A DNA stretch of 64,000 nucleotides from Citrus sinensis. Taxonomy: Eukaryota; Streptophyta; Magnoliopsida; Sapindales; Rutaceae. This document shows, piece after piece, positions 31,321 through 61,413 of this stretch (the first letter of the stretch is position 1; every line of letters starts with the position of its first letter). The notes beneath the pieces are model-generated. The model was not told the origin of the DNA and did no database searches. It saw only the letters and a program-made list of their open reading frames with translations. The stretch lies in the NCBI RefSeq assembly GCF_022201045.2, contig NC_068558.1, positions 4,617,501 to 4,681,500 of the forward strand. The letters are read 5' to 3'. Made by a program: the position numbers and the translations under genes.

Positions 31321-34300
31321 ATGAAGAGGCAACCGATAGCAAAAAGAACCCGTTCTCAAACAAATCGCATGATTGAGGAGAAGTATAAAAAACTTAAGGA
31401 AAACAAAGGACAAGAAAAATATGGGGCTGAATCGTCTAGTTCTAAGGTTAATGAATCATCCAGTTCTAAGGATGATGAATGTGTCAAAGGATTTGAAATG
31501 GACAATGTGAGTGACAAGGAGGAGAAGGAGGAGGGGACTAGATCAAAACAAGTTGATGATGATTGTGGTGGTTTTTTGTCAGAATCAGAAAGTGACAATG
31601 ATGGAAGTGATCCTTTAAGGCCAATTATAGTGGATTGTTGTCCTGAAGAAGATTTGGATTTAGATGCTGAGAATAGTAGTTTGGGGTCAAAGACAACTGA
31701 TGAGTATGTAATTAATGATGATTACGTGGATGATGATGGTGATGATGACGGTGAGAAGGAGGAGGAGGAGGAGAGGGAAACTGATGATGAAAGTTTACTG
31801 GAAGCACGTACGAAAAATAAGGGGAAATTAAAAAAGTCAACCAAGGGAAAGCACAACCGTGAGCTGAAACATGATCATGTTGAAAGAATTATTTTGAAAT
31901 CCATTTTGAATACGGAAGAAACTCCCTCAGAAGATTATCCATCTTCCAGCAGAGAGGTTTTAAGAGATGAGATGAGTCAATCATTCAATGATGATGAGGA
32001 GTCAACTCCATCAGAGAAATCAGAGTGTGATGATGGCTTGGGTTATCTCTGGGCTGAGATGGACTTTGCTCGCAAAGTCAGCGAGCTGCATTCCACTAAC
32101 TCTTCCATCGTATGTCGAGTTTGTAATTTGATTGAGCACAAAAGCATTACATTAGGATTGTTTTTATTGATTTAAGTTTTTATATTCTTTCTTAGATTGC
32201 ATTGTAACCTATTATTGTTTCCTGTTGGCTGCCTGACAATGTTATTCATAAATTACTCTGTGAACAAGTATTGGCAATTAGATTTTAAGCAATGCCATTA
32301 TCATCCATATTGTAATTAAAAAGTAAAAAACAGGCTTACTCTTTTTTCTTTTTCAGGTGTAGGCTTTAGTTTAAAGGATATACATGTTGATTTAATAGAT
32401 TTAATTGAGGTTCCAACTTCAAATTTGCATGCTGTAGACAGAAGTGAAATTGCTCTGTAGTAATTAGTATACCTATTGCTCTTTATTCTTTAAATTACTT
32501 CTAAGTTTTATGAACTTCTATTTTACATCAGAGGCTTATGGAATAAATTGATGATGCAAGGGTCAAATGCATGACTTTGTTGCTGTACTATATTATATTG
32601 ATTCATATTCTTAATTGTGATCATTTAGCATGAAAATATGTTTGTTGAACTGATGAGGCATATGCTATAGTTAACAAATTTATGATTGTTTTAGCTAATC
32701 AAATTCATTATATTTTTGTTTATTGTTATTTGCATTTATGACAAAGATGCTTGACTTTGTTGCTGCCCTAAATTATCTTTATTCATATTCTTAAATGTGA
32801 TTTTTAGTGATAAAAATATGTTTGTTGTACCGTTAAGGTATATATGTTCATGATTAGTGTTAACAAATTTATGATTGTTTTAGCTGATTAAGTCTATTAT
32901 ATATTGTGTATTGTTATTTGCATTTGTGATTAAAGATGCTTGGTTTTGTTGCTGTTCTAAATAATTTTGGTTCATTTTTTAATTGTGATCTTATAGCATG
33001 AAATATGTTTGTTGAACTGATTAGATATATATGTGTTCATGATTGGTGTTAACAAATTTATGATTGTTTGCTTATCAAATCTATTATATTTTGTTTACTG
33101 GTATTTGCATTTATGAACGAAGAATGTGGTAAACAGAAGTTGTTCCTTTTTAATTAGCTGGCTGAAAATGAAGCTGCTTCATCTAATGAGGTTGAAACTG
33201 CGAAAACTCGTTGTCAACGAGGGGATCATGATCTCATCCTTAATGAGGAATACGGTCTTTATTGCACAGTCTGCTCTTATATGAAGTCAATTAAAGATAT
33301 TGATCCACCTTTTGTAAGTAATGACTTTTATGTTTTTCTTTATGTTGATTATTAGTTAAATTGCTTATGTGATGTACTTTGCATAGAGATGAGTGTTTCC
33401 CGAGTAGGAAATTACTTATTAAAAGATGTATATTGCACATTGTTTGTTATGGATTTAAATTATATTCATGAGCTGAATGCTTACTAAGATTTCAATTGCT
33501 AATCTGGAATTGGAACCAAAACATAGTAGATTATGTTAATTTGATTGATTTATGACAGAAGCTCAGTTTTTAATTCTTTTTGACTCTCATATCTCTCTCT
33601 TTTAATTTTTTAAAGAATAAATTAAGCATAACTTATCTGATTTTTTGAACTTTGTTTGGGATGTCGCAGGCTACATCTCCTAGTAGAAGAGCAGAATGGA
33701 GGGAGTACAACAATGTGGATCCTTCATTTCTTGACGACCTTAACAGCCGTGACTCTGGTTTTGACTCCCAGTCAGGCTGTGATCCCTTTACTCATGCCCA
33801 AGGCACAGTTTGGGAGCTTGTTCCTAGAGATGTTAGGAAAAAAATGTTTCCACATCAGCATGAAGGTTTTGAATTTATCTGGAAGAATATTGCTGGAGGA
33901 ATAGACCTTGATGAGCTGAAAAACTCAACTAGTACTGGTGGTGGAAATGGATGTATCATATCGCATGCTCCGGGGACTGGGAAAACCGGTCTGACCCTTG
34001 TATTTCTGCAAGCATATATGAAATTGCATCCAAGATGCAGGCCTGTCATCATTGCTCCCCGCAGCATGCTGCTTACTTGGGAAGAAGAGTTTAAAAAGTG
34101 GGGAATTGACATTCCCTTTTACAACTTGAACAAGCCAGAGTTGTCTGGAAAAGAAAACAATGGTGCTGTGGCTTTAATGGACAACAGGAAACGTGGACGA
34201 GGGAAAGTGGGCCTTATACGGTATGTGAAGCTCTATTCGTGGAAAATGGGGACAGGGATTTTGGGACTTAGTTACAGGTTATTTGAAAAGCTTGTTAGTG

Positions 34301-35544
34301 GTGATGAATTAAGTGGAATCCTTCTTGACCTTCCTGGTCTTTTTGTCTTTGATGAAGGACACACTCCTCGAAATGATGACACTTGCATGTTTAAGGCTCT
34401 GAGCCGCATTAAAACAAGACGGCGTATCATCCTCTCAGGGACTCCCTTCCAGAATAATTTTCAGGAGCTGGAAAATACTTTAAGTTTGGTGCGGCAAGAG
34501 TTTGGAGAGGTGCTACGTACTGTTAGAAAGAGTGGGCACGAGAAAAGTAAAGCAAAACATGCCTCTCTGATCAGTTCCATTGGTAGATGTGCCAACCACA
34601 GAGATGATGAGAAACTGAAAGAGCTCAAAGAGAAGATTGCCCCATTTGTGAATGTACATAAAGGTACAGTGTTACAAGAAAGTCTTCCTGGACTGAGGCA
34701 CTCTGTGGTTATTTTACAGCCAGACGAGTTTCAGAAGAGGCTCTGTAAGGCTGTTGAAGGAGTAAAGAGCTTTGTTGAATTGAATTATTGTGTCTCTTTA
34801 ATCTCTGTGCATCCTTCTCTCTTACCTCAGCAATTCTTTGAGAGTTTTGATGTTGACAGTGCCAAATTAGCAAGGCTTAAATTGGATCCAGAGGCTGGAA
34901 TTAAGACAAGGTTTCTTTTGATCCTCCTTGAGCTTAGTACTAATGAAAAAGTTTTAGTTTTCAGTCAATACATAGAGCCTTTAACCCTGATAATGGAGCA
35001 GCTGAGACATAGATTCAACTGGAGAGAAGGGCAGGAGGTATTATATATGGATGGCAAACAAGACGTGAAAAAGCGGCAGTCATCCATTAATGTTCTCAAT
35101 GATCCATCCAGTCAAGCAAGGATAATGCTTGCCTCGACAAAGGCTTGTTGTGAGGGAATAAATCTTGTAGGGGCTTCTAGAGTAGTGCTGCTTGATGTTG
35201 TATGGAACCCATTTGTGGAGAGACAAGCTATAAGCCGAGCGTATAGGCTTGGTCAGAAAAGAGTTGTGCATGTTTACCATCTGATTACATCTGAGACATT
35301 GGAATGGGATAAATTACGTCGACAGGCTAGGAAAGTCTGGTGGTCTAATATGGTGTTCCCTTCTTCGGATGGAGGTGGTAATGATCAGACAACTGCATCT
35401 GAACCATTGGAGGATAAAATTTTAGAGGAGATGGCTCAACTTTACAACAATCCATCTGAAACATTGATTAATGCTATAATCCCTCAGCCCAAAGAAACTG
35501 AGTTGATTGAGACTTTTGGCGAGTTTCTGAATAAGAGCTCTTGA
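31321..35544 (+). CDS. CLSY3/4: SNF2 domain protein of the CLASSY family (CLSY3/4-like)
   Basis: Coding exons 31321-32109, 33158-33313 and 33670-35544 give about 939 residues. CLSY proteins guide RNA polymerase IV to chromatin for 24-nt siRNA production and RNA-directed DNA methylation. Residues 1-263 are a disordered acidic region with a basic start (KRQPIAKRTRSQ) and long Asp/Glu runs. Exon 2 encodes a Cys/His cluster (C..GDH...YGLYCTVC) as in the family. The SNF2 ATPase follows: Walker A HAPGTGKT with K420, motif II DEGH (543-546) followed by TPRN, motif III SGTPFQNN, and in the second lobe VLVFSQYIEPL, the ACCEGINLVGASRVV block and QAISRAYRLGQKR. DEGH in place of DEAH is typical of CLSY/DRD1. 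The protein is shorter than Arabidopsis CLSY4 (about 1130) or CLSY3 (about 1400), mostly in the N-terminal part. The ATG sits exactly at an intron acceptor. Confidence 0.9.
32556..33126 (+). repeat. Three-copy tandem repeat of ~180-190 bp in CLSY intron
   Basis: The phrase TGACTTTGTTGCTG starts a unit at 32572, again at 32752, and in altered form (TGGTTTTGTTGCTG) at 32941. Each unit contains AATATGTTTGTTG, TTAACAAATTTATGATTGTTT and TATTTGCATTTATGA in the same order. The periods are about 180 and 189 bases. The copies have diverged and no open frame runs through them. Confidence 0.85.
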
Positions 35545-41500: not shown

Positions 41501-41508
41501 GATCCAAG

Positions 41509-43198
41509 TAGAGATGGCAGAAAAGCCCGCCCGGACCGGATCCGGACCGGACCCGGCACATGCGGTCCGGGTAAAATCCGGCCCGCATGCATGAAAAAGG
41601 CGGATCCGGGCATTGATTTTCAATGCCCGGCTGTTTCCGGGCACGGGTCCGGTCACAGCACCAAGAACCCGGAACCCGGACCCGTGCCCGCTTTTTTATT
41701 AAGTAAAATATATATATATATATATATATAAAATGAAAATTGCATTTTTTCTTTACCCAATTTCCCCCAAACCCAACCGGCCAACCAACCCTAAATCGCC
41801 AATTCGGGACAAGTCTCAGAAATCAGAATCGGCACCTCCTCCCTCCGTCTCTCCACCAATACTGGAATAGCCGAATGGGAATGAGACGGGGCAGATAAAG
41901 AAAATGACTAGCACGCGTCGACTCCCAAGTGTCGGCAAACAGCAGTCTGGCGGTGAGCTAAATTGATCGTCATAACTTAACGGAGATGACTGGAGCGAGC
42001 GAGTGATGCTTGCAGCATTTAGTTCATCTCTGGATCTTTGGTGTATAAAATTATTCTTTTCTTCTCATTTTTAGAAGTAATAAATCTTCACGGTTCACAC
42101 AAATTTTATTTGCACAAAATATTTTCTGATGTTTCACAGGCACTACAAAGATGTATGAAAAAAGACCAAAGCCGAAACAAAACTACAAAACCGCTTCCCA
42201 CAGACATCTGAACTCTCCCGGCCCAAGCATGGTTCAGCATGCACCAGAATGCTCCTCCAAGTGAAGATGAATTCATCAGGCTTATTTCAACAATTTTCCT
42301 GTTCGTATCAAATGATTCCAGCACAAATTCTTATCCCTCTCCATGCCACATGCTTTCCTTCCACAACAAAAATATTAGCAGTGGAACTTGGAAGAGAGAA
42401 TACCTTTTGAGCCCTTGTTCCATCCCAACACATGGTGCGTCGCAATCAATAACACATCCTACTATTATTGAACAGCCACACTACTGTCCTCTGTGCGAGG
42501 AGGCCTCCATTTTTTATTAAAGAAATCCCTTTCAACTACATTTGGAGACTTTTGCTAATCGTCCAGTGTCTTCAGCCTTTCATCAATAATTTCCAGCAGC
42601 TCTTGCAAGCCAACTCCCGTCCTGGCAGATATTTTGACATCTGGGGCATGCTGGTCTTGAGATTGGGAATCTTTTTCCATCACACAGACATCTTTAGTAG
42701 ACTCAGGTTGTTGGTCCTCCGCAGCCTTCCAGAACTCTTCTTCAACGTTGTCTTGTTCATCTCCCGATAGTAACCAGCCATGAGAGTAGTCATTGTGGTT
42801 TTTATTCATGCTCTCTCCAAGATCCTCAGACACAAAGCCATCATTGTTTTCAGCATCATCACCACCATAATTATCAATGCATTCTACATCTACTTGCAAG
42901 TTGGGTTTGCAAGTGGGAAAAAGGCTTTTAATGAATCCTCATTTCAATATCTTTAATCAGTGAATTTCGAAGCTATATGTAATATGTGCGTTTCTGATTT
43001 TGTCCCATATATTATGACCACTCAAATTCATCAGTTATCACCACTCAAATCCGGGTAGAGAAAACCCGGAAAAAACCCGTGCCCGGCCCGCATAAAAAAA
43101 TTCCGGGCACGGTGCGGGTCCGGGTAGCTACATTTGATATCCGGGTCGGTCCCGGGCAGCTCTAAACCCGGACCCGACCCGGACTTTTGCCATCTCTA
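41509..43198. mobile_element. Pack-type hAT-like element carrying a GTPase gene fragment
   Basis: The ends TAGAGATGGCAGAAAAG and CTTTTGCCATCTCTA are inverted repeats. GATCCAAG is present immediately outside both ends (41501-41508 and 43199-43206), a perfect 8-bp duplication. The arms (41523-41700 and 43049-43190) are arrays of CCCGG, GGACC and CCGGGT phrases. Between them lies non-repetitive sequence of gene-like composition, including the GTPase fragment on the minus strand. An (AT)n run lies at 41709-41730. No transposase is encoded, so movement must have depended on an autonomous hAT element. Confidence 0.85.
42468..42941 (-). pseudogene. C-terminal fragment of an HflX-type GTPase-like gene, captured by a transposon
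   Basis: The minus-strand frame from about 42941 reads LFPTCKPNLQVDVECIDNYG, an acidic stretch with NVEEEFWKAAEDQQ, then VKISARTGVGLQELLEIIDE and RLKTLDD before a TAG at 42552-42554. SARTG followed by GLQELL is a G5-type motif of GTPases. After the TAG the same frame continues for 29 codons with KKWRPPR before a double stop, which suggests the TAG is a mutation. Arabidopsis chloroplast HflX-type GTPases (At3g49725-like) have a similar acidic insertion; I make that assignment from memory at moderate confidence. The P-loop and other G motifs are absent. AATAAAA (minus strand) near 42100 may be the captured poly(A) signal. Confidence 0.6.
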
Positions 43199-43207
43199 GA
43201 TCCAAGA

Positions 43208-43919
43208 TAGGGGTGGGCAAATTCGGTTTGGATCGGTTTGGGACATATTCTCAAACCGATCCAAACTAATTGGTTTGAAATATTTTCAAACCGATATCAA
43301 CCTAAAATTTTTTCAAACCGAACCGATCCAAACCGATTGGATCGGTTTGGATCCAGTTTGAACTTATTAGCTAAAATTCCACTTCTTTTATATTATTTTA
43401 CCTAAATTATTTGTTATTTTTTTGTGTCCGTAATCCAAATTGATACCTCTTTTATATTATTCATATCTACTTTGATATCTACATAACAATTCAAAGATAC
43501 ATCCATACAAGTTTACAGCATAATACATCCTAATAAACAAGTTCTTAACATGTTTATTCAAAACAAACTCACAAAATTAAAATAAACTTGAACAACTTTT
43601 GACAATTAAAATATTGTGCATCTTGTCCGTCAAAATTTATGGCCCAATTACTTTTGATTTGTCAAAATCTGCATAAAATGATAAATATAATTAGTTAGAT
43701 TGCTTAACTTAGAATATAATGTAATTATATAATATTTCTGGATTGGATCGGTTTGAATCGGTTTGGAATCCTTCCAAACCGAAATCCAAACTGAGTGATG
43801 TCGGTTTGCAATCCAATAAATCGAAACCAGTTTTTTTACTAATGAAACCGATCCAAACCGATCCAAATGGTTGGTTTGGATCGATTTAGATCGGTTCAGT
43901 TAAAATATACCCACCCCTA
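43208..43919. mobile_element. hAT-like non-autonomous element with GGTTTGGATCGG arms
   Basis: The left end TAGGGGTGGGCA and right end TACCCACCCCTA are inverted repeats. ATCCAAGA flanks both sides (43200-43207 and 43920-43927), a perfect 8-bp duplication. The arms are arrays of GGTTTGGATCGG/CCGATCCAAACC-type units in both orientations; the middle (43390-43730) is AT-rich. Length 712 bp, non-coding. Confidence 0.88.
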
Positions 43920-43982
43920 ATCCAAGATTTAAAACCTGGTCTAAAATAAGCCAATAATTTACCTGTACTACCATAAATAGTG

Positions 43983-60736: not shown

Positions 60737-61413
60737 TAGGGGTGGGCAAAAAAACCGTAGTGTTAAAAAAATCGAACCGAACCGACGGTTTTTTTTAATT
60801 TGGTTCGGTTTTTATTTTTTAAAAAAACCGAATATACCGTTTGTAAAAAAAATCGAAATGTCGGTTCGGTATTCGGTTCACTTAACTGAACCGAAAAACC
60901 GAACCGAAAAACCGAATTATTTTTTGATTTTATTCAAATCAGACATGATTTTATTCAAATCAAACATGTGTTATTTCTCTTTATAATATTATGATTATGT
61001 TTATATAGATGGAGTATTGGAGTTTGGTTATGTATTTTGAAATTTTAATATTTCATATTTTGGGAGTATCTTATTAATAGTTAGTAAGATATTAGTGATA
61101 AAATGTGTTTTGAATACTTTGTATTTATTGTTAATATTTGTAATAAAATTAGGAAAAATTAATTGTTGAAAAAAATTATTACATTCATGAGGCCCAATGG
61201 GCTAAAAAATTAAAAATTAAAAATTAAAAATAGACCCAATAGGCCCAGAACCAAAAAAACCGAACCGAACCGAACCGATCCGAAAAGAACCGTTTGAGTT
61301 CGGTTCTTATTGAGTTCGGTTCTTATTCGGTTCTTTTTATAAAATAACCGATTTAAATCGGTTCTACTTAATTTCAAACCGAACCGAACCGAACCGAACC
61401 GTGCCCACCCCTA
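60737..61413. mobile_element. Non-autonomous element with GGTTCGGTT arms
   Basis: The left end TAGGGGTGGGCA is the reverse complement of the right end TGCCCACCCCTA, the same terminal type as the element at 43208. Arms are arrays of CCGAACCGAA/GGTTCGGTT in both orientations; the middle (60940-61200) is AT-rich. The flanking 8-mers (TTGCCAAA and GTAGGCTG) do not match, so no target duplication is seen. Non-coding, about 677 bp. Confidence 0.75.

Follow-up and report, generated by a model that had tools for sequence, protein, structure and literature searches.

A Pack-type hAT element in Citrus sinensis carrying the 3' end of an HflX-type GTPase gene

Element anatomy and copies in the genome

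The window (the whole stretch analysed, 64,000 nucleotides of Citrus sinensis DNA) contains a non-autonomous hAT element of 1,690 bp at positions 41509-43198. Its terminal inverted repeats are TAGAGATGGCAG on the left and, inverted, CTTTTGCCATCTCTA on the right, with TAGAGATGGCA present at both ends, and it is flanked by the perfect 8-bp target-site duplication GATCCAAG (41501-41508 and 43199-43206, 8/8 match). The original prediction had placed a hAT-like element with these inverted ends and this duplication at exactly these positions. Terminal inverted repeats of the hAT type are short and start with TA-G. The 11-base end occurs twice per strand in the 64-kb window when up to one mismatch is allowed; exact matches were found solely at the two ends of this element.

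The left arm (41509-41858, plus strand) is common to transposase-bearing relatives and aligns with 92.9% identity to L009 and 92.4% to L010. The right arm (42894-43198, plus strand) begins at the switch point CTAC/TTGCAAG. Both arms are rich in CCGG, as had been predicted from the sequence: the left arm holds 14 occurrences against 1.5 in mononucleotide shuffles and the right arm nine against 0.8 (0/1000 shuffles reached 14 or 9, respectively), and the middle of the element holds one against 1.9.

The genome (299.7 Mb, 11 contigs) was searched with the 1,690-bp element. At least 75 matches were obtained with the best 40 of 223 candidates scored. Among the matches listed, three are full length, namely the window element, C3:47703630-47705337 and C4:9913446-9915154. 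The C3 and C4 copies are each 98% identical to the window element, contain the same fusion and are flanked by perfect 8-bp duplications of their own (GACCAAGA and ATCCCAAC, respectively). Both junctions are common to all three copies, and the HflX-bearing element has moved after capture, giving three separate insertions. A further 70 listed matches are confined to the arms (query 1-354 or from 1386 onwards). Related elements both with and without the HflX insert, which the original prediction had proposed to look for, are present in the genome.

The same arms are found in L009, L010 and L063. In L009 (4,897 bp) and L010 (4,601 bp) the frames for the zf-BED, hAT-like RNase-H and Dimer_Tnp_hAT domains are broken, and L063 (4,907 bp, duplication CCCGTGGC) encodes all three hAT domains in open frames of 263 and 488 aa. 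The window element has only positions 1-354 and 1450-1690 in common with L009; the transposase part is therefore absent from it.

Between 43078 and 43079 the window copy is without 22 bp of the right arm that are present in both sister copies. Over this stretch L009 aligns gap-free to the window copy and L010 to the sisters. Recurrent slippage is likely here, since GTGCC(C/T)GG repeats lie at the edges.

A second, different hAT-like element is located 9 bp rightward, at 43208-43919, with the ends TAGGGGTGGGCAAA ... CCCACCCCTA. Its duplication ATCCAAGA (43200-43207 and 43920-43927) overlaps that of the HflX-bearing element by 7 bp, and the two are separate insertions with targets one base apart. 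A relative starts at 60737. Elsewhere in the window, a 631-aa plus-strand frame at 33649-35544 resembles what we take to be an SNF2-type (CLASSY-like) remodeller.

The HflX block and its source locus

The arms enclose a block of host DNA at 41858-42893 (minus strand, antisense relative to the element), consisting of the 3' end of an HflX-type GTPase gene and 608 bp past the parent's stop codon (the parent's MITE not counted), which may be 3' UTR in part or in whole. The captured range had been predicted as 42100-42941. The limits were corrected to 41858-42893, as 42894-42941 is already transposon arm.

A search of the same genome for a parental locus, as had been suggested, located it at C7:4693198-4694445. 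Among the matches listed this is the one other place with the interior, and it is free of the arms. The matches are C7:4693198-4694196 (query 388-1385) and 4694399-4694445 (query 350-396), and with the parent's MITE left out the block shows 17 differences in 1036 aligned bases plus one 1-bp gap. In element coordinates the parent covers 350-1385, while the family arms stop at 351-354 and resume at 1386. Upstream at C7 lies the remainder of the gene, in eight or more exon pieces. The protein obtained by joining these exons by eye scored 289.5 bits against the GTPase HflX model TIGR03156 (cut-off 216.75) and matched solved HflX chains with a best E value of 4.7e-45, which bears out the original assignment to an HflX-type GTPase. 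The parent's last exon is a 196-aa open frame with the SARTG motif. The HflX name was obtained only from the joined exons, since neither Pfam nor the solved structures gave a significant match with the 127-aa frame of the element by itself (best 0.085 and 0.73, respectively) and the single HflX exons, which are short, gave no significant Pfam match (best 0.018).

C7 is the source and the window holds the copy. The opposite arrangement, in which the window would be the original gene end and the arms unrelated insertions, has nothing in its favour and is refuted: the remainder of the gene is at C7, and both junctions are common to three copies, each with its own duplication. A parental locus thus exists and is distinct from the window, and the reading of the interior as a captured gene piece is supported by the sequence comparison.

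The coding part of the block (42555-42893, minus strand) comprises 112 open codons with the SARTG motif (G5) and ends at a TAG at 42555-42557. It belongs to the minus-strand frame 42555-42938, for which the predicted SARTG motif, stop and coding-like stretch after the stop were all recovered. Following LKTLDD, all three copies have TAG where the parent has AAG, and the parent runs on with KQKSPNVVERDFFNKKWRPPRTEDSSVAVQ to its own stop over 30 codons, counting the changed codon as the first. The stretch beyond the stop resembles coding sequence because of these 30 parental codons; in the element the nonsense codon, the 29 further codons and the gene's own stop are located at 42465-42557 (minus strand). 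The block had been described as an exon plus UTR from the 3' end of a gene. It does contain the last exon and the gene's 3' end; the TAG is a nonsense change, with the gene's own stop further on.

In the coding part, the window and C3 copies differ from the parent at five codons, none synonymous and five non-synonymous (one nonsense), and the C4 copy differs at seven, all non-synonymous. These numbers are small; they give no sign of coding selection and could fit an unselected copy. The piece might still be kept for a function, e.g. antisense or small-RNA control of HflX, which would be compatible with capture, and a stretch of 1 kb nearly identical to the parent would permit pairing. We consider such retention unlikely in view of the codon differences, few as they are; the copies differ from one another by two to eight of 1036 bases, too few for judging non-coding constraint. 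The block varies at 24 alignment columns. Of these, 16 set the copies jointly apart from the parent (a 1-bp gap and 15 substitutions, unpolarised between copy and parent), six are private to C4 and two to the window.

The parent contains 202 bp that are absent from the element. They are a common MITE (40 places scored of 1379 candidates) flanked by TAAAGAAAA and TAAAAAAAA, and the element has TAAAGAAAA once (41896-41904) as the undisturbed target. The MITE therefore entered the parent after the capture, or the capture was made from a MITE-free allele, and in both cases the captured DNA was one contiguous block. The MITE and its flanking repeats rule out that the 202-bp gap arose by splicing or template switching. 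The source of another capture, that of the L026 type, likewise contains a MITE of 966 bp (40 scored of 945 candidates) with TTCACAAA on both sides, which is single in the element; splicing and template switching were ruled out for this gap on the same grounds.

Other captures and the capture step

A source elsewhere in the genome was found for nine of nine subfamily interiors tested (HflX and eight more, one representative each); the share of the inner DNA that matched a separate locus ranged from about half to the whole. Eight of the nine captures are present in two or more copies, the exception being L010. The L026 type matches C7:4812832-4814358 (96% and 88%, 19-582 of 583), the L013 type C9:31157708-31157958 (97%, 177-426 of 476) and the L020 type C3:4283354-4283709 (96%, 42-397 of 411). 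The source of the L023 type is C4:27968571-27968931 (89%, 14-362 of 382), in an RNase T2 gene, where it spans an intron. The L024 type corresponds to three pieces of C4:27929427-27929948 (89-100%, together ~360 of 541), 3' of a ZF-HD gene. L010 matches C8:1661154-1661655 (96%, 25-525 of 548), beside and over exons of a class II tRNA synthetase gene (31.0 bits for the exon next to the block and 22.9 for the exon inside it, cut-off 25). The L017/L019/L063 type matches C2:25495317-25495803 (91%, 11-512 of 521) and the L078 type C7:303953-304465 (91%, 85-582 of 582). The L013, L026 and L024 sources are ~0.4 to 1.8 kb from a gene, and some captures come from DNA without a recognised gene.

In the loci covered, both ends within one mismatch were present in 28 elements; one-ended or end-damaged elements (e.g. 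L022 and L028) are outside this count. The duplication matched 8/8 in 25 of them and 7/8 in three. By subfamily, 25 of the 28 contain a source-matched fragment, their interiors matching the representative, and L061 keeps part of one; the interior searches leave out L009 and L062. The sample is biased because it was drawn with the window element, and the capture counts are lower bounds from it.

Two pairs of sources lie on the same contig, C4:27929427-27929948 and C4:27968571-27968931 being ~39 kb apart, and C7:4693198-4694445 and C7:4812832-4814358 ~118 kb apart. In the L024 element (450-611; L068 1815-1855) a source piece of 17-41 bp is present three times, as if the template had slipped. Near the L026 source, L051 373-1779 holds a frame resembling what is presumably the end of a Ty1-copia-type polyprotein.

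Two transposase-bearing lineages, L010 and L063, also hold captures; unlike the window element, both keep transposase sequence. L063 contains a 501-bp patch where L009, L013, L018 and L027 have ~8 bp, with an overlap of 0 bp at the left join and 1 bp at the right and no flanking duplication of the patch. A nested transposable element was ruled out as the origin of the patch, given the missing duplication and its occurrence at only three places in the genome. In L010 the patch replaces ~760 bp resembling L009, and short stretches at the two joins are unassigned.

The HflX joins are CCACCA/ATACTGG, with an exact overlap of 1 bp, and CTAC/TTGCAAG, with none. The joins of the other captures vary, with an overlap of 4 bp at one extreme and ~85 bp of filler at the other. 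Clean joins are thus not general, as filler of 3 to ~85 bp is present at one join or more in L010, L020, L023, L026, L013, L024 and L078. These joins, together with the interior patch of L063, fit repair of an internal break by copying a template elsewhere, followed by joining.

The window element is very probably a Pack-type non-autonomous hAT element that acquired DNA of the HflX locus by gap repair and was moved by the transposase of its relatives. A break or gap would have arisen inside an older transposase-bearing element and been repaired by copying ~1.04 kb from the HflX locus, which at present lies on contig C7, so that the copied DNA replaced the transposase part. The chimeric element would have kept both ends and hence remained movable by a relative's hAT transposase, and would in this way have reached its three present sites. 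That the capture proceeded by gap repair from a copied template is inferred from the joins and the patch.

The same arrangement of conserved arms around a unique middle would also result if two related hAT insertions had once flanked the HflX block and their outer ends had moved as one unit. Fusion of neighbouring insertions has been proposed as a model for Pack-CACTA and other Pack-TYPE elements, with one maize Pack-PIF and one rice Pack-Mariner example, and hAT has similar examples according to the same authors (PMC8903248). In present-day C7 sequence no exact element end was found in 14.5 kb (L029 plus L011) and none with up to one mismatch in the 8.5 kb of L011 around the block. Ends with one mismatch were absent up to a distance of 7 kb from the block in one direction and 4 kb in the other; two such matches (L029 999 and 2005) are 7-8 kb away. 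One edge of the block is inside the parent's last exon with the frame intact there, which speaks against former insertions at this point. In L063 the stretches on either side of the patch are almost contiguous in a single family sequence, so that fusion would require, by coincidence, that two elements had been cut at nearly identical points. We regard fusion as improbable for the window element.

The element-end scan was extended to the sources of L026 (L051), L023 (L052), L013 (L053), L024 (L068 and L069), L020 (L073) and L010 (L077). No end with up to one mismatch was found in L053, L068, L069, L073 or L077. The two end matches in L051 are the later MITE, and L052 has two single matches with one mismatch, both outside the block. 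The sources of L063 and L078 (L079 and L080) show no arm match in ~100 bp of flank.

Reverse transcription of an HflX mRNA into the element would account for a piece that is the 3' end of the gene without any parental intron, and 3' UTR could then make up the 608 bp beyond the stop codon; the block itself does not separate an origin from DNA from one from mRNA. No poly(A) tract is present at the switch point, and the captures that include DNA without a recognised gene also tell against an mRNA intermediate. A DNA origin is favoured by the L023 sister capture, which retains exon-intron-exon of the RNase T2 gene. A retrocopy is accordingly given a very low probability, and the capture was most probably made from DNA.

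It is conceivable, if doubtful, that the CCGG-rich, self-complementary arms give rise to internal breaks or stalled forks. Capture of host DNA from elsewhere would then be something that this family, transposase-bearing members included, does repeatedly and because of its sequence, and would not be a series of rare accidents.

Comparison with known capture systems

Pack-MULEs have target-site duplications of 9-11 bp, and Helitrons have neither target-site duplications nor terminal inverted repeats. The window element was thus excluded from the Pack-MULEs by its 8-bp duplication, and from the Helitrons by this duplication together with the inverted ends. The length of the duplication, the short terminal inverted repeats and the hAT transposase encoded by L009, L010 and L063 are those of the hAT superfamily. 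A host gene fragment is enclosed between the ends, its parent is located elsewhere, transposase is absent and several copies exist; the element belongs to the known Pack-hAT kind.

DNA transposons that capture host genes can give rise to new gene combinations. How cut-and-paste elements capture genes is still debated, and for unlinked fragments a 2026 review (PMC13317346) allows for a mechanism yet to be discovered. The citrus family adds nine sources placed within a single genome. At two of them the order of events can be read from later MITE insertions, and a patch in a full-length element helps to separate template-copy repair from fusion of neighbours. Together they make the mechanism testable by comparing related plant genomes. 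Among the titles listed, none dealt with hAT capture in citrus. Capture by non-autonomous hAT elements had been called less often described; capture by hAT elements, which the original prediction thus took to be less documented, is better documented than that (PMC2528002, PMC3260210, PMC8903248 and PMC8277862).

In the grapevine Hatvine-6 family, common terminal inverted repeats and transposase go with variable parts that often correspond to host DNA, genic as well as non-genic (Benjak et al., 2008, PMC2528002). The citrus family is alike in being hAT, in its common ends and transposase and in its variable, host-matching interiors, a likeness of organization. The citrus family differs in its nine placed sources, with the copies of each capture, later insertions in two sources and a patch defined at base resolution.

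The Pack-hAT elements of maize and rice have hAT ends, an 8-bp duplication, a gene piece and several copies (Gisby & Catoni, 2022, PMC8903248), as has the window element. That work favours fusion of neighbouring insertions, whereas the L063 patch fits template-copy repair better.

In maize, gene fragments are present in two Ds2 and nine Ds-l4 elements with introns retained, and the donor genes of the cited examples lie on other chromosomes (Du et al., 2011, PMC3260210). The citrus captures resemble these in their hAT ends with filler and, in the L023 type, a retained intron. They differ in that donors are reported for some of the maize elements only, whereas each of the nine citrus interiors tested has at least a partial source.

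Among the animal Pack-TIRs, 208 of 370 are hAT (Tan et al., 2021, PMC8277862). Gap filling was proposed there for single-copy cases, with microhomology (median 2 bp) at a breakpoint in 67.6%, and Pack-hAT-N8_XT is a multicopy animal hAT case. Only four multicopy cases are given in that account, whereas eight of the nine citrus captures are present in two or more copies.
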